DNA of 64,000 bases from Acidobacteriaceae bacterium (GTDB lineage: Bacteria > Acidobacteriota > Terriglobia > Terriglobales > Acidobacteriaceae), in NCBI GenBank assembly GCA_003139095.1, contig PLHW01000028.1, positions 1 through 64,000 of the forward strand, read 5' to 3'. Numbering within the stretch: position 1 is the first letter of the stretch; every line of letters begins with the position of its first letter. The notes beneath the pieces were generated by a model that worked only from the letters and a program-made list of their open reading frames with translations, did no database searches and was not told where the DNA came from. Below, one piece after another: positions 7,635-44,462 of the stretch. The position numbers and the translations under genes are program-made.

Positions 7635-7714
7635 AGGTTTCAGAGTTTCAAGGTTTGAAGGTTTCAAGGAATCGAGGCAACTTTGAAACCTTGAAACTTT
7701 GAAACCTTGAAGCC
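7635..7714. repeat. mirrored octamer element between rpoN and hpf
   Basis: The left arm (7635-7668) holds four GTTTCAAG-type octamers and the right arm (7680-7714) four copies of the complement, CTTGAAAC type. Only about 11 bp separates them, so nearly the whole rpoN-hpf spacer can form one stem-loop. The right arm abuts the rpoN stop codon at 7715. The other end lies just upstream of the hpf ribosome site. Confidence 0.88.
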
Positions 7715-9757
7715 TTATTTTTTCACTCTTCTCTGGTGCGTACTCGGAATCTTCATGTCTTCCCGGTATTTCGCCACCGTGCGCCGCGTTACATCGATCC
7801 CCTGCGATTGCAGAATGCGCGTAATCTGCTCGTCGGTCAGCGGCCGCGCCGGATCCTCATCCTCGATCAGCTTCTTCACCCGCCGCTTCAATATCAGCAG
7901 CGACGTGCCGCCCCCCTCCGGGCCCTGCACGCTCTCCGAGAAGAAATAGCGCAGCTCGAACACACCCTGCGGCGTATGTACATACTTGTTGGCCACCGCG
8001 CGGCTCACCGTCGAGGGATGCACGCCAATTTCTTCGGCCACTTCCTTGATCATCATCGGCTTCAGATGATCGATTCCGCGTTCCAGGAAGTCCTCCTGCC
8101 GCGCCACGATCGAATAGCACACCTTCGTGATTGTCTGTTTCCGCTGCTCGATATTCTTGATCAGCTGAATCGCCGATTTATAGCGGTCTTTGACGTAGTT
8201 GCGCGTGTCTTTGTCGTTGCCCTCGCGCGTCAGCAGCCGCTTGTACGCCGGGTTCAGCCGCAACTGCGGCATGTCCTCGTCGTTCATGATGATCAGCCAC
8301 TCGTCCCCGTGCTTCACGAAGGCCACATCCGGCTCAATCAGCCGCGCCGGCGTTTTGTTGTACTGCAAACCCGGCCGCGGGTCCAGCGTGCGCACGTATT
8401 CCAGCGCCGTCTGCACCGCTTCCACCGGACGCCCCATCGCCCGCGCAATCTCCTTGAACTGCTTCAGCGTGACCGCATGCAGATGCCGGTCCACCACCGC
8501 AATGGCATCGTTCAAAACCTGTTCGGTCGAGCCATCGCCATTGCGCCCGTGCTCCAGTTGCTGCATGTGATAGTGCAACTGCCGCAGCAGGCATTCCCGC
8601 AGATCGCGGCACGCAATGCCCGGCGGATCCATCTCCCGCACCACGTCCAAAGCTTCGTGCAGATCGGCCAGCGTAAAGCTTACGGCCGGCTGCGTGTGCG
8701 TCGCAGCAGTAGATGGAGAAATGGCGGCATGACTCGCAGCCGTCGTGGGATTCCGAGCGGTCGCCGTGGCCGGACTCATCGTGGTCTGCGCCGTCCCCGT
8801 TGCCGATTGAGCCATCGACGCCCCATTGCTAGCCGCCGCGTGTGCCGCACTCATCTCCGGCGAGCCCATCTCCATCGTCGTTCCCAATTGCGATGGAGCA
8901 TCCTGCGCCGCACTCGCCGTTCCCACTCCGACAGCGCTCTCCGGAGCAACATCGCGCTGCATCGTCGCTCCCACCGCTCCGTACGCTGAACCACTCTCCA
9001 TCGCGTACGCCGACGCCCCGGTTTCCAAACCAGAACCATTCGTTCCCGAGTCCGCCGGCGAAAAATCGCTCACGCCGGAATCGACTTCCGCGATCGGCTC
9101 CAAACTCTCCGCCGCGGCCGCGGCCTCCGCCTCCCGCGCCACCGCAGCAATCCCCAGCGCCTCCGCCTGGCCCACGATCTTCGCCTGCACTTCGGCGTCT
9201 TCCTCGGGTGCGGCGACCGGCGCAACTCCCAGCAACTCCTCGTCGCTGGCAATTAAATATCCTTCCTCATTCAGGTTGCCGATAATCGACTCGGCCGCTT
9301 CGTGCACCGGCGGCCGCACCGAAATCGCACCCAGTTGCCACAGCAGGTAGTCGGTCAAGTTCCCGGGCTTCGACAAAAAATTCTCGAACGACGGCTTCTC
9401 GATCTCCTCCATCTCCCCCGAGCTGCGATAGCCCGGATCGAGATAGTCCTGGAAGAACGAGCCAAAATCGATCTCTTCAAACGGGTCTTTCTTTTCCGCC
9501 GCCGTGATGGGATTCTCTTCCGTCGTTGCCTTCGAGGCGATGCGATCCCGCTCTTCTTCCTGCCGACCCACGTCGTCGAGCATCGGTACCGCGTCTTCCA
9601 GTTCTTCGAGAACCGGATTCTCCACCATCTCCGCGGTAATCATGTCCTTGAGCTCGAGCTTATTGAGCGCAAGCACCGAGACCATCTGCACCAGCCCCGG
9701 CGTAAGAATCTGCCGCTGCGACAGCTTGACGTTTAATCTGTGCTGAAGAAGAACCAT
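7715..9757 (-). CDS. rpoN: RNA polymerase sigma-54 factor with a long insertion
   Basis: Sigma-54 directs core polymerase to -24/-12 promoters that need AAA+ activators. Region I is typical (LNVKLSQRQILTPGLVQMV, 8-26). The acidic region II follows. The core-binding domain resumes with DPPGIACRDLRECLLRQL at about 377-394. The HTH (EEIGVHPSTVSRAVANKY) and the RpoN box TRRTVAKYRE (657-666) are intact. The protein is 680 residues against about 480 in E. coli. The excess is an Ala/Ser/Thr/Gly-rich low-complexity stretch at about 180-358 inside the core-binding domain. The ATG has an AGGA site. It lies between lptB and hpf, its classical neighbours. Confidence 0.95.
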   Translation of the reverse strand: MVLLQHRLNVKLSQRQILTPGLVQMVSVLALNKLELKDMITAEMVENPVLEELEDAVPMLDDVGRQEEERDRIASKATTEENPITAAEKKDPFEEIDFGSFFQDYLDPGYRSSGEMEEIEKPSFENFLSKPGNLTDYLLWQLGAISVRPPVHEAAESIIGNLNEEGYLIASDEELLGVAPVAAPEEDAEVQAKIVGQAEALGIAAVAREAEAAAAAESLEPIAEVDSGVSDFSPADSGTNGSGLETGASAYAMESGSAYGAVGATMQRDVAPESAVGVGTASAAQDAPSQLGTTMEMGSPEMSAAHAAASNGASMAQSATGTAQTTMSPATATARNPTTAASHAAISPSTAATHTQPAVSFTLADLHEALDVVREMDPPGIACRDLRECLLRQLHYHMQQLEHGRNGDGSTEQVLNDAIAVVDRHLHAVTLKQFKEIARAMGRPVEAVQTALEYVRTLDPRPGLQYNKTPARLIEPDVAFVKHGDEWLIIMNDEDMPQLRLNPAYKRLLTREGNDKDTRNYVKDRYKSAIQLIKNIEQRKQTITKVCYSIVARQEDFLERGIDHLKPMMIKEVAEEIGVHPSTVSRAVANKYVHTPQGVFELRYFFSESVQGPEGGGTSLLILKRRVKKLIEDEDPARPLTDEQITRILQSQGIDVTRRTVAKYREDMKIPSTHQRRVKK

Positions 9758-10128
9758 TTTTCCTAAAGTTTCAATTCCGAAGTTTCAAGGTGCTAAGGTT
9801 TCAAAGTTTCAAAGTCCCGAACTTCCAGAGCTTTCAAACGTTTCAACGTCCCCGTTCAACTCCAGCTTCATTCCGCATCCGACGCCGAAGACCTTGAAAC
9901 TTTGAAACCTTGAACCTTTGAAACCCGCTCTTGCTGCCTTCTCTAACTTCTCACGCACGATGCCCTTCCGACTCGTCACGAAGGTCCAATCCGTCTACGC
10001 CTTGGTAACCAATCGCGCCACCAGTGGTCAGTTGCAAACCGTCAGTCATCAATTGCCGGTTGCCAGTTTTCATTCTCCGATCAAGAACTCGCTGGCAACG
10101 GATAGCTGGCAACTGGCAACTGCTTCCC
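9758..10128. repeat. rpoN-lptB spacer filled by two short-repeat elements
   Basis: This 371-bp gap contains no gene. At 9767-9820 there are GTTTCAAG-type octamers and at 9893-9927 their complement, CCTTGAAAC type, with about 70 bp between them. At 10028-10075 come CAGTTGC-type heptamers and at 10088-10124 their complement, GGCAACT type, around a 12-bp core. The second element ends four bases before the lptB stop codon at 10129. Two mirrored elements of different families therefore lie end to end inside one operon. Confidence 0.8.
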
Positions 10129-10857: not shown

Positions 10858-13245
10858 TTATCGTGCCACTTGCGTCCGGGTAACCGCTGGGGACGTTGTT
10901 CTTCCTTCCACGAGCACCCTATCATCGCGTTTATAGAAAGTCAACGAATCGCCTGTGATTTTGCCGCGTTCGGCATCAAAAATGCTAGGCGGTCCGCCCG
11001 TCAGCACAAACTTCTCGTCCGCCGCCGTATATACCAGCCGATCTCCCGTCGCTCGCCTCGCCGGCTCCTCGATCACCACATCTTTCTCCGCCACAATCCT
11101 CTCCACCTGCCCCGCCCCCATCTGCCCAACTCCCGCCTGCCCTGCCACCGCCTGACCCGAGGTCGTCCCCCGGCCTGCCCCGCTGTGCGGCTCCGCTCTC
11201 GAAACCAGGTACACGGTCATCAGTCGCGCCGTCATCGTCGCGTCCGCCCCCTTGGCCGTCACCCCGCCGGTCAGCACTATCTTTCGTTCCGCATCCGTAT
11301 AGGTCAGATTCGCCGTGGTGATCGTCACCGGCGTAGCTTTGCCGCTCGAATCCACCTGCACCAGCACCGTCTTCACCGTCTGGCTCGCATTCGCCTCGGC
11401 GGCCAGTGATCGCCGGTCCCGATTGAATTCCAACGTCGGCGCCTCCACCACATTGCTGTTCTGCCACAGCTTGGCATTGCCCGTATACACGGCTACCGCC
11501 GACGAACGATGCGCCGTCATGCTCCGGCTCACCACATGAATCGGATCCGATGCCGCCAGCATTCCTCCGTCCGGCTGCGGCTTCAGGTCCGAATACGTGC
11601 TCTTCACGTTGCCTTCGGCCACCGCATCTCCGGTCGTGCGGTTAAACCGAATCGTCTGCGCCGTGGTCGTCATGCTCCCGTCCGCCACTCGCGGCGCCCC
11701 CGTCAGCTGCAGCGTCTGGTCCGCTTCCGAGTACGTTCCCCGTTCCGCCCACGCTTTTTGTGTGCCGCTCACATAGACCAGCCCGCCCCCCTGCGTGACC
11801 GTCGAGATGCCACCCTGCGGCTGAAACTGCACATCCAGCGTCGGGCTCGTCGAAACTCGATCCGGCTGCCCCGCCACGCTCTCCACAATCTTTGTATTCG
11901 GCTCCCCGTGCAGCAGTGACAGCCGATTCTGCTCGGTAAATTTCCCCGTGAACCGGTCCGCCGTCACCACCGTCTTCCCGCTCGTGCCCGGCTGCGTGAT
12001 TACGATTTCCGGCGGCCCGCTCGTCTCCGCGAATTCCACCTGGTTGCCGTTCTTCACCACAAAGTCCATCGTCGGCGCCGTCATCTCGATGTCTTGCCCC
12101 GACCCCGTACCGCGTCCCTGCGAGTTCGCGATCAACGAAGATGGCGCCGCCGATCCCGACGCCGGCGCCGATCCCGAAACCGCACCCAATCCCCCGCCCA
12201 CTCCGCTCCCGCTCCGCCTCTGTTCCAGCCGCACGCCTTCATCCGCATGCACCGTTTTCAGCACCTGATTCGCCCCAAAATGCAGCGTCGCCCGCCCCGC
12301 ATCCGCCTCCGCTGCTTGCGCTCCTTCGCCCGTGATCCGCACGTTGCCGCTCAGCGTCACCGTCGTCAGCTGGTTCCGCGTTCCCGTCAGCAGCAGTTCG
12401 GCATGATCCGACCGCGTGTGTGCCTCCGACTTCCCCGCAAATGCCCCCTCCACGTCGCCATCGGCCACTACGCGCTCCACCGTGTTGTCATTCCGCAGAA
12501 AAAATGTCGCCTGCTCCGCCTGAAGTTGCTGCTGCTCGCGCTTCACCTGCGCGCCGCTCAGCACCACCGTCCTCGATCCCTTGTTGATCACTCCATGCTC
12601 CGCGGTGATTTGATACGGGTGCGGCGAGTGCACGCTCACCACCACCGACGACCGCAGCGTCATCGTCCCCGTCTTCGAAACGTATTCCACGCCCACCGCC
12701 GACCCCATTGCCTCCGGCGTCTCAAACACCACGCGCCCGTTCGATGAGCCGTCCCCGGTGTTTTTGTTGAAGACCAGCCCGTCGCTCTCCAGGTGAATCG
12801 GCTTGCTCTCGCGCGCCGGCGGCGCCTGGTCTGAACTTTTCATCCCTTCGGGGTTCGCCTCCAAATCGATCAGAACTCTGCCGTGCGCCGTCACGTCTCC
12901 CGTGCGCGGGTCGAATTCGAAATCGTCGCCCACAATGCGGTCAAAGCGGCTCGCATCCTTGCCGTACACCACGATCTTCACGTCGTGCAGTTCCGCCCGC
13001 CCGCCTTCTTTAAATTGCACCGCCTTGGATGCGCTGACCGTGAACTCGGTGCGCCCGCCTTCCGACTTGGAGATGGAAAAGCCCTCCGCCGTCTGCTGAA
13101 TATTCAGGCCCAGCTTGGCGGGAACCATGTGCACGGCCTTGCTCACGCGCCAGCGCGCGTAGAAATACATTCCGGCAACAATCGCAATCATCAGAATCGC
13201 GCCCGCAGCAAACCACCGCCGCAGCCGCCGTACAGGGAGGGGCAT
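10858..13245 (-). CDS. lptC: LptC-LptA/OstA fusion, LPS transport bridge protein
   Basis: The 795-residue protein starts with a basic tail and one membrane anchor (residues 12-30) like LptC. LptC/OstA-type beta-jellyroll repeats follow: 'FDPRTGDVTAHGRVLIDLE', 'FNKNTGDGSSNGRVVFETPE', 'FNRTTGDAVAEGNVKSTYS', 'YTDAERKIVLTGGVTAKG' and 'YTAADEKFVLTGGPPSIFD'. LptC is about 190 residues and LptA about 185, so this is a fusion with extra jellyroll units that could form most of the periplasmic bridge. A Gly/Ala/Ser-rich linker occurs at about 345-385. It is directly upstream of lptB, the classical order. Calling it lptC alone is a simplification. Confidence 0.85.
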   Translation of the reverse strand: MPLPVRRLRRWFAAGAILMIAIVAGMYFYARWRVSKAVHMVPAKLGLNIQQTAEGFSISKSEGGRTEFTVSASKAVQFKEGGRAELHDVKIVVYGKDASRFDRIVGDDFEFDPRTGDVTAHGRVLIDLEANPEGMKSSDQAPPARESKPIHLESDGLVFNKNTGDGSSNGRVVFETPEAMGSAVGVEYVSKTGTMTLRSSVVVSVHSPHPYQITAEHGVINKGSRTVVLSGAQVKREQQQLQAEQATFFLRNDNTVERVVADGDVEGAFAGKSEAHTRSDHAELLLTGTRNQLTTVTLSGNVRITGEGAQAAEADAGRATLHFGANQVLKTVHADEGVRLEQRRSGSGVGGGLGAVSGSAPASGSAAPSSLIANSQGRGTGSGQDIEMTAPTMDFVVKNGNQVEFAETSGPPEIVITQPGTSGKTVVTADRFTGKFTEQNRLSLLHGEPNTKIVESVAGQPDRVSTSPTLDVQFQPQGGISTVTQGGGLVYVSGTQKAWAERGTYSEADQTLQLTGAPRVADGSMTTTAQTIRFNRTTGDAVAEGNVKSTYSDLKPQPDGGMLAASDPIHVVSRSMTAHRSSAVAVYTGNAKLWQNSNVVEAPTLEFNRDRRSLAAEANASQTVKTVLVQVDSSGKATPVTITTANLTYTDAERKIVLTGGVTAKGADATMTARLMTVYLVSRAEPHSGAGRGTTSGQAVAGQAGVGQMGAGQVERIVAEKDVVIEEPARRATGDRLVYTAADEKFVLTGGPPSIFDAERGKITGDSLTFYKRDDRVLVEGRTTSPAVTRTQVAR

Positions 13246-13527
13246 AGCTCAAGTCTAAAAGAAATTCAGAAAAGAGGTTCGAGGTCAGATTGCCGAGCGA
13301 AGTAAGAAGGCTTCAAGGCTTCAAGGTGCCAAGGTTTCAAGGTGCCAAGGTGTCAAGGTGTCAACGAGATTGCTTCCGGCGAGGTTGCTCACTTCTTTCC
13401 TCTAGTCCACTCTTAGGGACTCTACTTTGGGGGGATTGCATTGCTGCGCATCGGCGTTGACGATTTGACTAGCTTCCGCCATGAGCATCGCATGGCGGGG
13501 CACGGCATCCCGGTTTCCAAGGGAGTT
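13246..13527. other. region upstream of the S23 gene, holding its left array
   Basis: This 282-bp space lies between the divergent LptC/LptA start and the S23-type gene. It contains seven perfect-period octamers at 13307-13362. The remaining 165 bp before the S23 start shows no recognised gene or promoter. The GGGAG just before 13528 serves as the ribosome site. Confidence 0.6.
13307..13362. repeat. left octamer array of S23 cassette 1
   Basis: Seven tandem octamers with consensus AAGGTTTC or AAGGTGTC, in exact 8-bp phase, upstream of the S23-type gene. They match the reverse complement of the right array at 13956-14011. Confidence 0.92.
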
Positions 13528-13893
13528 ATGGCGCGTTCTTATCGCGAACTGGTGGTCTGGCAGAAGGCGAAAGCTCTTGCTGTTCACACCTACGCCGCTA
13601 CGGCGAATTTTCCCAGAGCCGAAACCTATGGCTTGACCTCACAAATTCGGCGATCCTCGGTTTCAGTGGCCTCCAACATTGCAGAAGGACAAGGTAGACT
13701 GACCCGGGGCGAATTCCGCCATTTCCTGGGACAAGCCCGCGGCTCCCTACTGGAAGCTGAAACGCAGCTCGCGATTGCCCGGGATCTGGGATTCCTCGAG
13801 CAGAATGCCTTTGCGTCGTTGGATGAGGAATCTTATCGAGTGCTCGGCCTGCTGGATCGCCTGTTGAGTTCACTGCAAAGAATGCCCGCATGA
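13528..13893 (+). CDS. four-helix-bundle (S23 / 23S rRNA IVP) family protein, copy 1
   Basis: The 121-residue protein is all-helical, of the family first seen in intervening sequences of 23S rRNA genes and related to the Avd accessory proteins of diversity-generating retroelements. Diagnostic parts are SYRELVVWQKAKALAV, GLTSQIRRSSVSVASNIAEG and GEFRHFLGQARGSLLEAETQ. The frame is open to 13441 but the ATG at 13528 has GGGAG upstream and begins the conserved region. The molecular role is unknown; other family members form pentameric basic barrels. It is bounded on both sides by octamer arrays in opposite orientation and interrupts the space between lptCA and an RDD gene. Confidence 0.9.
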   Translation: MARSYRELVVWQKAKALAVHTYAATANFPRAETYGLTSQIRRSSVSVASNIAEGQGRLTRGEFRHFLGQARGSLLEAETQLAIARDLGFLEQNAFASLDEESYRVLGLLDRLLSSLQRMPA

Positions 13894-13955
13894 AGCAAGC
13901 CGGATTATCCAGCTTTGAAGCCCTGCCAACAAGAGCCCGACCTTCGCGGCCGGAA

Positions 13956-14011
13956 CCTTGAAACCTTGAAACTTTGAAACCTAGAAACTTTGAAACCTTG
14001 AAACCTAGTTT
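13956..14011. repeat. right octamer array of S23 cassette 1
   Basis: Seven tandem octamers, consensus CCTTGAAA with CTTTGAAA and CCTAGAAA variants, in exact phase. They are the inverted counterpart of 13307-13362. The last copy contains the stop codon of the RDD gene (14005-14007). Confidence 0.92.
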
Positions 14012-14718
14012 CTCCTCACCAACGTTCCCGCCATCATGTCGTGCAATCCCTGCTTGCGCTCCGTGAACCCGACCATGATGAACCCGATGCCGAGAATCAT
14101 CGCGGAGACGATCTTCGCGAAAAGTCTACCCGTGGCCCGCGCAAACGAAATGCGGTTGCCGTAAAGGTCGGTGACCTTCATCCCCAGAATCATCTTGCCC
14201 AGCGTGGCCTGGTACGCGGAGCTTTCCATCAAAGCCTCATACAGCCAGGACGCCCCGACCGTAACCAACGCGAGCACGCCGCCTCCGAAAATCATGTAAG
14301 GGAGCGCGAATCCCCGGTGAAATCCATTAAAGTCGAAGCCGCTCGCCGCCAGTCCACCCAATCCGAATAGCGCCTTGAGCGGGAAAAGCACGACGCGCAC
14401 GATAAAAAAATCGATGATCGCGGCCAGCACCCGAATCCAAAACCCTCCATACTGAACGCCCACCGCGCCGTAAGGCGCTGCGCCAGGATAAGGTGTCCCC
14501 CCATACGGAGTCGCGGCAGGCTGAGGCGCACTCGCGCCCGGGTAAGGCGTACTCGGGTTATAAGGCGCGCCCGCCGGAAAGCCACCCGCCGGCGGCGCCG
14601 GAGGCGGACCGGGCGAAGCCACCGCCGCCGGATTCAGCGCCGTCCCGCATCGCCCGCAAAACTGCGCCGTCGCATCGTTCGGCGCCCCGCACTTATTGCA
14701 GAAAAGTGTTCCACTCAT
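14005..14718 (-). CDS. zinc-ribbon RDD family membrane protein
   Basis: The 237-residue protein begins with a zinc ribbon (FCNKCGAPNDATAQFCGRCG, two CxxC pairs). A Pro/Gly/Ala/Tyr-rich linker at about 30-85 follows, then an RDD domain with three or four membrane segments (FWIRVLAAIIDFFIVRVVLF, LPYMIFGGGVLALVTVG, FAKIVSAMILGIGFIMVGF). The RDD signature Arg and Asp residues are in RVLAAIIDF. RDD proteins are inner-membrane proteins of mostly unknown transport role. An upstream GTG (14727) is possible; the ATG at 14718 was chosen. The stop codon lies inside an octamer array. Confidence 0.88.
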   Translation of the reverse strand: MSGTLFCNKCGAPNDATAQFCGRCGTALNPAAVASPGPPPAPPAGGFPAGAPYNPSTPYPGASAPQPAATPYGGTPYPGAAPYGAVGVQYGGFWIRVLAAIIDFFIVRVVLFPLKALFGLGGLAASGFDFNGFHRGFALPYMIFGGGVLALVTVGASWLYEALMESSAYQATLGKMILGMKVTDLYGNRISFARATGRLFAKIVSAMILGIGFIMVGFTERKQGLHDMMAGTLVRRN

Positions 14719-14794
14719 GGCGGGCACTATAAGTCTTTCCCCGAAATCTGTAAAGGCTCAGTTTGGAGCATGTTCAAGTCTTGCCGCTCACGAC

Positions 14795-29293: not shown

Positions 29294-30025
29294 TCACTTG
29301 GCGGCCGGCGCATACGGAATCGGATCCTCGGCGCCCGCCTCGCGAAAAGCGCGCAGGCGCAGCAAACAGCTGTCACAAACACCGCACGCCCGATCTTCGC
29401 GTTGATAGCATGACCACGTTAAATCGAACGGCGCATTCAGTTCAAGGCCAAGCCTCACAATTTGATGTTTGCGCATGGCGATGAGCGGCGTCACGATCTG
29501 AATCGTGCCGTCCCGCGTGCCTGTGCGCACCACTTCATTGAACGCGCTGTAGTATTCCGGGCGGCAATCGGGATAACCCGAACTGTCCGGCTCGACCGCT
29601 CCAATATAGATTTTTGTCGCCCCCAAAACTTCCGCCCAACTCACGGCGACGGACAGAAAATGCGCGTTGCGGAAGGGCACATAGGTGACGGGAACGCTCG
29701 CGCTGGTCGGCTCGATGCTCTGCGATTCGATGCTCTGCGATTCGATGCCGTGCGATTCGGGAACGGCAATCGAAGCGTCGGTGAGGGCCGAGCCGCCGAT
29801 CGCGCGCAAGGCTTCATTACGGACGATAAGGCGATCGCGAATGCCGAGCCGGTCGCAGATGGCCTCAAAGGCGCGCCGCTCGCGGAGTTCGGTGCGCTGT
29901 CCATAGCTGACGTGGACAGCCGCTGCATGGCAGTCGCGGGCAGCGAGGGCCGCGCACACGCACGAGTCCATTCCTCCGCTCAGCAGAACCACGCATGCAA
30001 TTCGGTCATCAGGAGATCTGGTCAT
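29294..30025 (-). CDS. queC: 7-cyano-7-deazaguanine synthase
   Basis: QueC converts 7-carboxy-7-deazaguanine to preQ0 with ATP and ammonia for queuosine. The PP-loop is LLSGGMDS at about 14-21, and the C-terminal zinc site is [17 protein letters not shown]. Length is 243 against about 230 for the family. The extra residues come from a 15-bp in-frame repeat (29712-29756) giving ESQSI units. The true start is uncertain: ATG codons at 30025, 30049 and beyond lie in or near a GGGTGATC-type repeat, and the chosen one is closest to the conserved core. It lies downstream of queE and the S23-type gene. Confidence 0.93.
29712..29756. repeat. 15-bp in-frame triplicate in queC
   Basis: Three direct copies, consensus TCGATGCTCTGCGAT, in 15-bp phase with the queC reading frame. 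They encode an I-E-S-Q-S pentapeptide (minus strand) in the variable loop before the ligand-binding helix. Confidence 0.9.
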
Positions 30026-30165
30026 CGGGTGATCGGATGATTGGGCCATCTGAGATTTTACGCCGGACAAACGACGCCAGGCAGTGGAGTTCCGCACCAA
30101 ATTTAGAGGACAGCAGAACCGTTTTTTAGATGACCCGATGGCCCGATCGCCAGATCACCCGATGA
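30008..30165. repeat. GGGTGATC-family element between queE and queC
   Basis: Mirrored degenerate octamers: 30008-30050 reads GTCATCGGGTGATC-type units, and 30129-30165 reads GACCCGATGG and ATCACCCGAT-type units. The second arm ends at the queE stop codon (30166-30168), and the first covers the queC start region. The same family recurs at 62100-62150. Confidence 0.75.
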
Positions 30166-30876
30166 CTAGACTCCCTTCGCCGCCGGATCCCAGATAAATT
30201 TATGCAGTTGCATGCTCAGGCGCGCGGGGACGTTGTCGGCCAGAATCCATTGCGCGAGTTCGGCTGGATTAAGCAGACAGTGTGAGGCATCGCGCGCGCC
30301 GCTCGCGTCTTTGCGAAAAGCCGGTGAAAACAGAATGGCATGGACTCGTTCGGAAAGCTGATGCTCGCGAACAAAGTCGCGCGCGAATTCATAATCCGCG
30401 CGGTCAGAGAGAACGAATTTCAGTTCGTCGTGCGGCCCGAGCGCTTTTAGATTCTCGATCGCGAACGTCTCCGCCGCGCCCGAGTGCGGACATTTCACGT
30501 CGACAATTTTGATGACTTGCTTCGGAACCGCTCCCAGCGCCCGTTCTCCGCTGGTTTCAAGCAGAATTGTATAGCCTGCCGAAATCAGCCGCTCCATCAA
30601 TGGAACGACTTCCCGCTCCTGTAGCATCGGCTCGCCACCGGTGATTTCGACCAAGCAGTTAACAGTTGCCAGTTGCCGGTTGCCAGTTGGCGCATGCAAC
30701 TTGTCGACCTCGGCAAGGACCTCATCGACCGGCATCTTCTTCCCGCCATAAAAGCTGAACTCGCTGTCGCACCAGGTGCAGCGCAGGTTGCAGCCCGTGA
30801 GGCGAACAAAAACACAAGTCAATCCAGCGTAGGTGGATTCGCCTTGCAACGATTTGTAGATTTCAGTGATCAGCAT
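30166..30876 (-). CDS. queE: 7-carboxy-7-deazaguanine synthase, radical SAM
   Basis: QueE rearranges 6-carboxytetrahydropterin to CDG in queuosine synthesis. The radical SAM cluster motif is CNLRCTWC at about 30-37 (C-x3-C-x2-C), the substrate loop is GESTYAGLTCVFVRLTG, and the SAM-binding GGEP follows. A dozen residues (PTGNRQLATVNC) immediately before LVEITGGEP are the translation of a CAGTTGC heptamer array inside the gene (30655-30690), so the protein is slightly longer than usual. The ATG has no ribosome site because another array begins seven bases upstream. It is between the S23-type gene and queC. Confidence 0.92.
   Translation of the reverse strand: MLITEIYKSLQGESTYAGLTCVFVRLTGCNLRCTWCDSEFSFYGGKKMPVDEVLAEVDKLHAPTGNRQLATVNCLVEITGGEPMLQEREVVPLMERLISAGYTILLETSGERALGAVPKQVIKIVDVKCPHSGAAETFAIENLKALGPHDELKFVLSDRADYEFARDFVREHQLSERVHAILFSPAFRKDASGARDASHCLLNPAELAQWILADNVPARLSMQLHKFIWDPAAKGV
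30655..30690. repeat. CAGTTGC heptamer array inside queE
   Basis: Five 7-bp units of the CAGTTGC family (CCAGTTG, CCGGTTG, ACAGTTG variants) lie in frame in queE between the AdoMet cluster and the GGEP motif. Confidence 0.85.
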
Positions 30877-30882
30877 GGAAAG

Positions 30883-30914
30883 CAGTTGCCAGTTGCCAGT
30901 CGCCAGTTGCCAGT
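30883..30914. repeat. left heptamer array of S23 cassette 2
   Basis: About 4.5 heptamers, consensus CAGTTGC with one CAGTCGC, in exact 7-bp phase, between the queE start and the S23-type gene stop. Inverted counterpart at 31333-31360. Confidence 0.92.
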
Positions 30915-30936: not shown

Positions 30937-31314
30937 TTATGATTGTCCCTCGTTGGGCGGCTTGCAAATGGATGCCAGGAGCCCATTCAAAATTCGCCCG
31001 ATCTCGGCGCACGCCTTCAATAACGTCCCGGTTTTTTCCGGTTCCAGGTAACCAAGATTCTGTGCAATCTGCAATTGAGTCTCAACTTCCATTAGCGATC
31101 CGCGAGACTGCCCCAGAAAATATCGGAATTCCTTTTCTGACAAGCGGCCTTGCCCCCCCGCGATGTTGCTGGGAATTGAAACTGCCGCGCGTCTGACTTG
31201 CGAGGTTAGACCAAACTGCTCGTCTTTTGGGAAGTGAATCGTCGCACCATAAATGGCTGTGACCAAATCCATCGACTTCTGCCAAGCAACCAGGTCTTTA
31301 TAGGATCGCCCCAC
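30937..31314 (-). CDS. four-helix-bundle (S23 / 23S rRNA IVP) family protein, copy 2
   Basis: This 125-residue member of the same family as the gene at 13528 shares SYKDLVAWQKSMDLVTAIY, FGLTSQVRRAAVSIPSNIAGG and FRYFLGQSRGSLMEVETQLQ with it. The conserved Asn before IA, the basic VRR and GSLxEVETQ helix are all present. The start is GTG with AGAGGA six bases upstream. It is inserted into the queD-queE-queC operon, which has no known need for such a protein. It is bounded by mirrored CAGTTGC arrays on both sides, the same arrangement as cassette 1 but with an unrelated repeat family. Confidence 0.9.
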   Translation of the reverse strand: MGRSYKDLVAWQKSMDLVTAIYGATIHFPKDEQFGLTSQVRRAAVSIPSNIAGGQGRLSEKEFRYFLGQSRGSLMEVETQLQIAQNLGYLEPEKTGTLLKACAEIGRILNGLLASICKPPNEGQS

Positions 31315-31332
31315 TTTTTCCTCTCAATTCAG

Positions 31333-31360
31333 GCGACTGGCAGCTGGTGGCTGGCAACTG
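31333..31360. repeat. right heptamer array of S23 cassette 2
   Basis: Four heptamers, GCGACTG, GCAGCTG, GTGGCTG and GCAACTG, in exact phase and in inverted orientation to the left array. The last copy ends directly at the queD stop codon (31361-31363). Confidence 0.9.
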
Positions 31361-31738
31361 CTACTCGCTGTAGGTCGCGGTGGTGGTATCGGTTTCGAAG
31401 ACCGTTACGTCCTTCACGCGTACGCGTCCGTTGGTCACGCCTTTCAGGCGGGTGTTGGTCTGGTCGTAAAAATATTTGGACAAATTCTCCGCGGAAGGAT
31501 TGAGAGTGGTGAAGGGCTCAATCTCATTGAGCATCTGATGATCGAGGCGCTCGATGACGTGCTTCATCACATCCTTCAGATCCTTGAAATCGAGCAGCAG
31601 TCCTGCCTTATCAAGCTCGGCGCCGGCGAGCGTGACGCGAATTTTATAGTTGTGGCCGTGCGGGTTCTCGCACTTCCCCTTGTAGTTGCGCAGGTAGTGT
31701 CCCGCGGCAAAAGTGTCCTCTACGGTTACTTCATACAT
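31361..31738 (-). CDS. queD: 6-carboxy-5,6,7,8-tetrahydropterin synthase
   Basis: QueD makes 6-carboxytetrahydropterin from dihydroneopterin triphosphate, the first queuosine-specific step. It is a T-fold protein of the expected size (125). The zinc histidines are visible in FAAGHYLRNY and ENPHGHNYKIRV (H at about 13, 28, 30). The catalytic region LDHQMLNEIEPFTTLNPSAENL is intact. It heads the minus-strand que operon. No preQ1 riboswitch was found upstream. An S23-type cassette follows its stop directly. Confidence 0.95.
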   Translation of the reverse strand: MYEVTVEDTFAAGHYLRNYKGKCENPHGHNYKIRVTLAGAELDKAGLLLDFKDLKDVMKHVIERLDHQMLNEIEPFTTLNPSAENLSKYFYDQTNTRLKGVTNGRVRVKDVTVFETDTTTATYSE

Positions 31739-35130: not shown

Positions 35131-35236
35131 GATCGTCGTTGGTCGTTAGTCGTCGGTCGTTAGTCGTTCGTGGTTCAACGCAGGATTGGAGCTCTTGCTA
35201 ACGACTATCGACTCACGACTAGCGATCAACGACTAC
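35131..35236. repeat. mirrored GTCGTTA heptamer element
   Basis: The left arm (35131-35173) has GGTCGTTAGTC-type units starting three bases after the anti-sigma stop codon. The right arm (35199-35236) has AACGACTA-type complementary units, with about 25 bp between. The DUF4097 start follows 30 bp later. The spacer RNA can fold into one long imperfect hairpin. Confidence 0.85.
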
Positions 35237-44280: not shown

Positions 44281-44462
44281 AGGGTCAAGGTTTCAAGGTT
44301 TCAAAGATGCAAAGATGCGAAGTTTCAATGTTTCAAAGTTTCACGCACCATTTTGCCGGATACTTCACCGCTTCTGGTCCGATGTTTCCGACCGGCTATG
44401 GTCAGATTCTAGCAGCCCGCGCTGTATTGACTCGGCGGGTTGGGAGGCGATACAAGGACAGG
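44281..44462. repeat. divergent gap with GTTTCAAG octamers
   Basis: 44285-44345 contains direct GTTTCAAG/GATGCAAA/GTTTCAAT octamers in 8-bp phase. The remaining 115 bp carries the promoter region of the SDR gene; nothing else was recognised. Confidence 0.75.

Follow-up and report, generated by a model that had tools for sequence, protein, structure and literature searches.

The window analysed here, a DNA stretch of 64,000 nucleotides, carries a small gene between two mirrored octamer arrays (cassette 1), located between an LptC/LptA-type gene (10858-13245, minus strand) and an RDD gene (14005-14727, minus strand). Its parts are as follows:

13307..13364, plus strand: left arm of cassette 1, tandem octamers of the AAGGTTTC type (flank alignment score, TRF, and period scan)
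13528..13893, plus strand: S23/IVP gene (PF05635, TIGR02436), 121 aa, four-helix bundle (profile matches and AlphaFold2 model)
13954..14011, minus strand: right arm of cassette 1, reverse-complement octamers, extending across the RDD stop codon

The left array (13307-13362) is composed of AAGGCTTC (two copies), AAGGTGCC (two), AAGGTTTC (one), and AAGGTGTC (two), its period continuing to position 13364, and the right array (13956-14011) of seven octamers of the reverse-complement type, the final one of which, CCTAGTTT, is degenerate. Both arrays were recovered by TRF and by period scan, confirming, together with the sequence itself, the initial annotation of an S23-type gene at 13528-13893 enclosed by seven plus seven mirrored octamers. 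One detail of that description was corrected: the arrays are real, but their unit is a family of related octamers rather than a single repeat sequence. The block lies between the LptC/LptA-type and RDD genes, and the stop codon of the RDD gene falls within its right array. The proposed S23/IVP four-helix-bundle identity is borne out by matches to PF05635 (120 bits, E 6.5e-35) and TIGR02436 (“four helix bundle protein”; 113 bits) and by an AlphaFold2 model, built from a 12-sequence alignment, with four helices and a pLDDT of 94. As to domains, the gene carries PF05635 only, with no Y1 (HUH) tyrosine transposase domain, and a search for a catalytic motif in S23 found none. Foldseek ranked 2GSC (XCC0516) and 2RLD highest for the model, followed by Avd (4DWL) and the ribonucleoprotein of a diversity-generating retroelement (DGR; 8UB7), to whose chains the model aligns with TM scores of 0.75-0.81 and E values of 0.02-0.4, at 9% sequence identity to Avd. 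The kinship of PF05635 and Avd has already been published (PMC10053308).

To score mirrored arms, the 400 bp to the left was aligned locally with the reverse-complemented 400 bp to the right, and an inverted-arm score of at least 30 was taken as the threshold. Cassette 1 scores 54, and 600 other positions of the window score at most 27. For the RNA of positions 13300-14018, the predicted fold pairs the arms at its base (-273.6 kcal/mol; z -3.4 against 20 shuffles). The S23 gene is antisense to both neighbours, so in its coding sense the stem would lie outside the RDD-lptC transcript; the other six S23 loci of the genome are co-oriented with their neighbours, as named from translations.

The source genome (5.53 Mb in 75 contigs) has seven PF05635 genes. 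A second one lies in the window, together with arrays that have no S23 gene:

30883..30914, plus strand: left arm of cassette 2 (locus L002, score 35), heptamers of the CAGTTGC type
30937..31323, minus strand: S23/IVP gene of cassette 2, stop-to-stop open frame, with the PF05635 match at 30982-31299
31336..31363, minus strand: right arm of cassette 2, degenerate GCAACTG type
30656..30689, plus strand: extra CAGTTGC array, in frame within the queE-type gene adjoining cassette 2
7637..7716, no strand assigned: S23-less mirrored octamer hairpin, unit family of cassette 1
9787..9922, no strand assigned: S23-less mirrored octamer arrays, unit family of cassette 1
30024..30163, no strand assigned: S23-less mirrored arrays, ATCGGGT type
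35135..35233, no strand assigned: S23-less mirrored heptamer hairpin, GTCGTTA type
44285..44343, plus strand: single octamer array, cassette 1 family, without a mirrored partner of comparable score
45257..45299, plus strand: single octamer array, cassette 1 family, without a mirrored partner

The extra array at 30656-30689 has the same unit as the cassette 2 arm and adds about nine residues relative to the syntenic L008, which has no array. Mirrored arrays with units of 7 or 8 bp surround all seven S23 genes of the source genome, six by score (54, 35, 35, 50, 54, and 33) and the seventh, L007, by inspection, its score of 25 being under the threshold. The arm types are AGCTCCA, CAGTTGC, TCTCAGT, GTCGTTA, AAGGTTTC, TTATTGAG, and TTTGTAA: the unit changes from locus to locus and the two arms of each locus agree. 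The number of repeat units also varies between loci, and the seven S23 copies are mutually diverged. A 400-kb sample of this genome (20 segments of 20 kb each) yielded three S23-less hairpins (L208, L221, and L224) and many single arrays; over the window and this sample, hairpins and single arrays without S23 are more numerous than S23 cassettes, and their units recur elsewhere as S23 arms. Arrays of the strength seen at sites scoring at least 30 in the 400 kb have mostly period 7 (12 arrays) and period 8 (one), with three of period 12. The window itself is denser in 7/8-mer arrays, with 14 rows (score at least 14) in 64 kb versus 13 in the 400-kb sample.

Among the source genome and 20 relatives, 17 of 21 contain PF05635, as compared to none of 14 control genomes. 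From this genus and order set, 68 of 70 loci were taken (two weak PF05635 matches were left out), and L014 and L019 were dropped at a contig end, leaving 66. The check proposed with the initial annotation, a search for mirrored arms near S23 genes in relatives, bore out the association: 58/66 loci score at least 30 versus 5/2520 background positions in the 400-kb sample, which fall at three sites and reach a maximum of 34. The 58 include L028, a 100-bp inverted match with no tandem array; the eight loci below threshold are L017, L035, and L023, plus L033, L007, L065, L030, and L016, the last five of which have arms recognisable by eye. When the 66 loci are collapsed into 27 synteny groups, the group median is at least 30 in 24. 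Left arms paired with right arms from another synteny group reach 30 in 43 of 2000 pairings, and controls shifted by 1150 bp to either side within the scored loci do so in 2 of 144. An eight-genome set, whose genes overlap partly with the earlier sets and from which L273 and L278 (cut) and L277 (under the Pfam cut-off) were left out, gave 17/21 loci with a score of at least 30.

The association extends through the phylum and beyond it. Across Acidobacteriota, PF05635 occurs in 75 of 149 genomes, and when the best copy from 29 of these 75 was scored, 28/29 loci reached the threshold. A GTDB-wide set, obtained with an acidobacterial query and made up of the best 80 among 572 confirmed relatives (hence no random sample), lost L071, L115, L132, and L136 to short flanks; of the remaining 76 scorable loci, 51 score at least 30 and 25 fall below, with Acidobacteriota, as judged by record title, contributing 12 loci (10 hits) and other phyla 64 (41 hits). 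Outside Acidobacteriota, these best 80 of 572 include Planctomycetota, Verrucomicrobiota, Chloroflexi, Bacteroidota, Pseudomonadota, Elusimicrobia, and Patescibacteria. Inward G+T-richness was counted in 102 of 133 left arms, after L028, L077, L089, and L121 had been removed by hand. An Rfam scan placed none of 40 S23 loci in rRNA, ruling out an rRNA location for those scanned. Array content was also compared with S23 content: four S23-lacking genomes of the same family, which share one genus and therefore amount to one contrast rather than four, have no 7/8-mer arrays in approximately 327 kb sampled (two calls, in L299, were runs of N and were excluded), and five S23-bearing genomes have 38 arrays in 800 kb (5, 0, 15, and 5 per 100 kb, and 13 per 400 kb). 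The zero belongs to G159, which has three S23 genes but no arrays in the 100 kb sampled.

Candidate partner enzymes were sought by profile. The source genome has three Y1_Tnp matches, which keep a RAYT acting in trans a candidate there. RVT_1 has no match in that genome, with its seven S23 genes, or in G004, G005, G008, G011, G012, and G013, which have two to six S23 genes each and some of which are incomplete; a reverse transcriptase acting in trans was rejected as a candidate for these seven genomes. Neither Y1_Tnp nor RVT_1 is matched in S23-bearing G004, G008, and G013, the first two of which are incomplete; G013 is 98% complete and has four S23 genes, three of them with array arms. Separately, the Y1 transposase genes found in genus relatives (L285-L288) have long inverted repeats on both sides that contain REP-like palindromes.

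Plasmids allowed filled and empty sites to be compared. When searched by tblastn, the S23 protein of the window was matched in 26 plasmid records out of 72,556, most of them from cyanobacteria, and 50,697 phage records gave no match. Eight of 12 plasmid loci score at least 30; in L235 and L238, the right arm was seen by eye to overlap the end of the S23 frame, and in L228 and L230, mirrored arms were not seen. Four sites in Nostoc plasmids are occupied in some records and unoccupied in others: site A (filled in L235, L240, and L243; empty in L239, L241, L242, L244, and L250), site B (filled in L239; empty in L235, L240, L241, L242, L243, L244, and L250), site C (filled in L231 and L232; empty in L246, L247, and L248), and site D (filled in L236; empty in L249). 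The empty versions lack the arms and the S23 gene alike, indicating that the arms arrive together with the gene. The insertion point at sites A-C follows the stop codon of one gene and precedes the start of the next, and at site D, it falls between two genes that both lie on the other strand. Thus, arms and gene were inserted as one unit, usually in the gap that separates a stop codon from the following gene, in agreement with the reading of the block as a cassette. Some target bases are altered or lost at the junctions, and no consistent target-site duplication was found at sites A-D or at the nested insertion described below, the short candidates being TTCTA (site A) and ATG (site B). At site B in L239, the right arm is separated from the following start codon by 30-odd bases (1895-1937) that are absent from the empty site and could act as a ribosome-binding region.

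On Aulosira, Trichormus, and Scytonema plasmids, the 412-bp element of site A is matched over its full length (from query positions 1-12 to 412) by relatives with 78-81% identity. The element occupies three mutually unrelated places (site A, L238, and L251/L252), and in alignments that include the flanks, the similarity is bounded by the arms. These alignments support movement of the S23 element to new sites with fixed ends in cyanobacterial plasmids, though not for cassette 1. The terminal inverted repeats are kept between copies of this cyanobacterial family and differ across the loci of the source acidobacterial genome. The suggestion that the cassette is mobile therefore stands for the cyanobacterial element, found at three unrelated sites, but not for the cassette 1 copy itself, which is one of seven diverged copies and has no counterpart at the same gap in sister genomes: among 20 loci of the genus at which the RDD-lptC gap was read, S23 is there in the source genome only. 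Directly after the RDD stop codon, L330, L332, L338, and L341 have S23-less array hairpins with other units, and the gap contains palindromes resembling those beside Y1 transposase genes in L333, L334, and L339 and is 110 bp long and repeat-free, as judged by eye, in L343. Hairpins of different descent thus land in this gap, which may attract or need hairpins in general.

Elements without an S23 gene insert as well. The S23 gene of L243, otherwise near-identical to that of L235 and L240, is interrupted by a 182-bp S23-less insertion that has its own mirrored heptamer arms and no evident duplication. An identical 31-nt arm is shared by this insert, three more copies (L253-L255), and the S23 element of L251. 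L251 is a plasmid locus of Trichormus/Anabaena variabilis ATCC 29413, with WP_011316862.1 as its S23 protein. By blastn, the S23-less element occurs at 101 places on 43 plasmids; 27 records contain it at a coverage of 80% or more, and this Nostocales element was observed at four sites at which flanks were compared. S23-less derivatives with shared arms therefore exist and have inserted elsewhere, and the S23-bearing and S23-less forms look like autonomous and non-autonomous versions of one element. No Rfam family matched the S23-less cyanobacterial element at seven loci. Its interior has further palindromes (L243, 765-960).

The STRRs of cyanobacteria are an orphan heptamer repeat family. Others include GGGAATC repeats in Xanthomonas, with 70-75 convergent inverted pairs (in Xanthomonas campestris, 186 repeats, of which 70 pairs are convergent) and described without a partner gene, and GGGGA(C/T)T repeats in Nostoc (both PMC4692102), as well as TAACTGA repeats in Beggiatoaceae and others (PMC4679880). 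Like S23 arms, these families consist of 7-bp tandem arrays dispersed between genes; the term S23 is absent from the main text of PMC4679880 and PMC4692102. S23 would be a new link as the partner gene of such families, a link tested in one genome with GGGAATC arrays. Perfect triple GGGAATC was found in one of 369 gammaproteobacterial genomes (G583, eight matches), and the single PF05635 gene of G583, a partial family match located between accB- and accC-type genes as read from translation, has GGGAATC-type units on its left and GATTCCC-type units on its right. The prediction that GGGAATC arrays go with S23 held in this one case.

Co-variation of the two arms was followed at one syntenic position, the gap between dprA and topA, where S23 cassettes occur in 11 genus-set genomes and in other genera too. 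In a family-level comparison (dprA matched in 43/45 genomes; 30 loci), S23 was matched at 12 loci (weakly in L185), and remnants with arms were recognised by eye at L181, L195, and L204; others are empty, with gaps down to 71 bp (L183) and 74 bp (L188) versus approximately 490-660 bp when filled. The units at this single position include AGTTATC, AGCTCTT, TAGCTAC, CCGCTNT, and GGGTGCC. Over 21 loci, the median arm score is 42 within a locus versus 18 between loci, and 40 of 420 foreign arm pairings score as high as or higher than the own pairing. The two arms thus match each other while the unit drifts from locus to locus. Median dN/dS of S23 at five syntenic loci is 0.073 (eight sequences), 0.105 (five), 0.094 (four), 0.057 (three), and 0.148 (four), with dS saturated or undefined in some pairs. 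S23 at these loci is, by these ratios, under purifying selection, and some copies are therefore old residents rather than recent arrivals. Such selection at loci fixed across a genus is odd for a purely selfish element.

Cassette 1 shares traits with several known systems and belongs to none of them. The 23S rRNA intervening sequence (IVS) of Coxiella is approximately 428 nt long, has a 28-bp stem that is cut by RNase III, and has tandem heptamers upstream of its open reading frame; IVSs of Coxiella and Leptospira are present sporadically, and a mobile origin has been proposed for them (PMC4990558). As in cassette 1, an S23 frame lies in the loop of a terminal inverted-repeat stem. The original view that such a unit was not known is to be qualified accordingly: an S23 frame in an inverted-repeat stem, with heptamers in Coxiella, is already known in rRNA (PMC4990558), but S23 genes linked to mirrored tandem arrays outside rRNA were not found in a search of one open-access (PMC) collection of papers. 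The IVS is situated inside 23S rRNA (helix 9, 25, or 45), and cassette 1 is situated between lptC-type and RDD genes; moreover, the cassettes, unlike the IVS, have tandem-array arms specific to each locus, S23-less relatives, and a distribution over many loci and phyla. RAYT/REP systems (REPtrons) resemble S23 cassettes in having a small gene between inverted copies of a dispersed repeat, numerous gene-less repeat copies between genes, and a preference for gaps near stop codons, but their gene is a Y1 (HUH) transposase rather than a four-helix bundle, their repeats are single palindromes rather than 7-8-bp tandem arrays, and the four Y1 loci examined carry other repeats. The DGR accessory protein Avd (4DWL; 8UB7) has the same four-helix-bundle fold (TM 0.79), in a setting unlike that of the source genome, which has no RVT_1 match. 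MITEs paired with autonomous transposons are comparable in that the ends of the short S23-less elements are identical to those of S23-bearing elements; in contrast to MITEs, S23 elements have no transposase, no consistent target-site duplication, and tandem-array ends. Cassette 1 is, in sum, neither an IVS (it is outside rRNA), nor a RAYT (no Y1 domain), nor a DGR (no detectable reverse transcriptase).

We propose, with a probability of roughly 60%, that cassette 1 is a copy of a widespread element of approximately 420-710 bp whose S23 protein acts on the element's own arms and promotes their copying or insertion. The element consists of an arm of tandem 7- or 8-mers, the S23 (IVP) gene, and that arm in inverted form. 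In the transcript, the two arms would base-pair and enclose the S23 frame as the loop of the resulting long stem, an arrangement known from the 23S rRNA IVS, and by analogy with the latter, RNase III may cut the stem out, in which case insertion into an operon would be cheap. S23, as an Avd-like, nucleic-acid-binding type of bundle, would act on its own arms in the form of an RNA stem or a DNA hairpin and would promote copying or insertion of the arms, in trans also for S23-less arrays, much as a RAYT transposase acts on REP sequences. Copying between paired arms, together with slippage, might keep the arms alike while their sequence drifts. The RNA stem, the action of S23 on its arms, and arm-to-arm copying are the inferred steps of this model.

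Four other explanations were weighed. An unlikely one is that the arrays are independent hairpin repeats spread by RAYT/Y1 proteins, slippage, or recombination, with S23 as a passenger in hairpin loops. The numerical excess of S23-less hairpins and single arrays over S23 cassettes, the hairpins with other units at the RDD-lptC gap of relatives, the three Y1_Tnp matches of the source genome, and the replacement of helix tetraloops by 23S IVSs (PMC4990558) are all consistent with passengers. However, the arrays are missing from the empty sites; G013, at 98% completeness, retains array arms at three of its four S23 genes with no Y1 or RVT_1 match; the four S23-lacking genomes of the family have no 7/8-mer arrays in the sample; and the four Y1 genes examined are flanked by inverted repeats of another kind. 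Somewhat less probable still is a domesticated RNA-binding regulator of the operon, with cis-regulatory arms kept by compensatory change and with rare, incidental movement. Such a role would fit the dN/dS medians of 0.057-0.148 at five syntenic loci, retention of the dprA-topA locus across the genus and its presence in other genera, the co-orientation of six of the seven copies in the source genome with their neighbours, and the Avd-like fold. Against it, the unit differs from locus to locus, so that it offers no constant sequence to bind; in cassette 1, S23 runs antisense to the neighbouring genes; some copies at dprA-topA have decayed (L195 and L204, by eye); loci and presence differ among close relatives; and S23-less arrays spread as well.

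A DGR-like retroelement, in which the S23/Avd-like protein would recruit a reverse transcriptase in trans to copy the stem-loop RNA, draws on the fold shared with Avd and the DGR ribonucleoprotein subunit and on one survey in which PF05635 was the most frequent Pfam near DGR reverse transcriptases (PMC10053308); the lack of any RVT_1 match in the source genome and its six S23-bearing relatives, some of them incomplete, makes this improbable. The window is rich in arrays, and S23-less arrays exist, as would be expected if mirrored arrays around S23 were a coincidence of repeat-rich genomes, but such chance pairing was ruled out by the window, genome-background, shifted, and cross-group controls: rates of 58/66, 28/29, and 51/76 (among the best 80 of 572) stand against 5/2520 and 2/144, and cross-group arm pairs reach 30 in only 43/2000. 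We regard coincidence as having a negligible chance of being correct.

Beyond cassette 1 as a copy of an S23 element, a broader proposal is put forward tentatively, with somewhat less than even odds: S23/IVP genes may be the hallmark of an unrecognised class of mobile elements with arms that are matched rather than fixed, which would spread by means of an Avd-like protein with no recognisable transposase or reverse transcriptase, throw off S23-less arrays in trans, and be the source of orphan heptamer families in cyanobacteria, xanthomonads, and others, with 23S IVSs as the few copies that landed in rRNA helices. If this is true, most S23 copies would be unrelated to rRNA and part of a mobile element of unusual design, whose ends are set by repeat pattern and mutual complementarity rather than by fixed sequence. 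Dispersed heptamer repeats, known for decades, would gain a partner gene, making their origin testable; Avd-type proteins would gain a role outside diversity-generating retroelements, and the IVS would become a small corner of an unrecognised element class.

Two further observations concern the diversity of S23 genes and their settings. A second, divergent S23 subgroup (L006, L007, L035, and L051-L062), in which ANYRA replaces NIAEG and which scores 45-65 bits to PF05635, has mirrored arms too and occupies loci of its own, namely nrdR-icd and nuoD-nuoE. In addition, S23 lies between cas6 and cas4 of CRISPR loci in L233 (a Pseudanabaena plasmid), where it is found within long heptamer arrays, and in L234 (an Anabaena plasmid), where cas1d of type I-D comes next. 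A CRISPR-linkage figure in PMC10910872 shows a “23S rRNA IVP”, whose appearance there may be explained by S23 at such cas6-cas4 positions.
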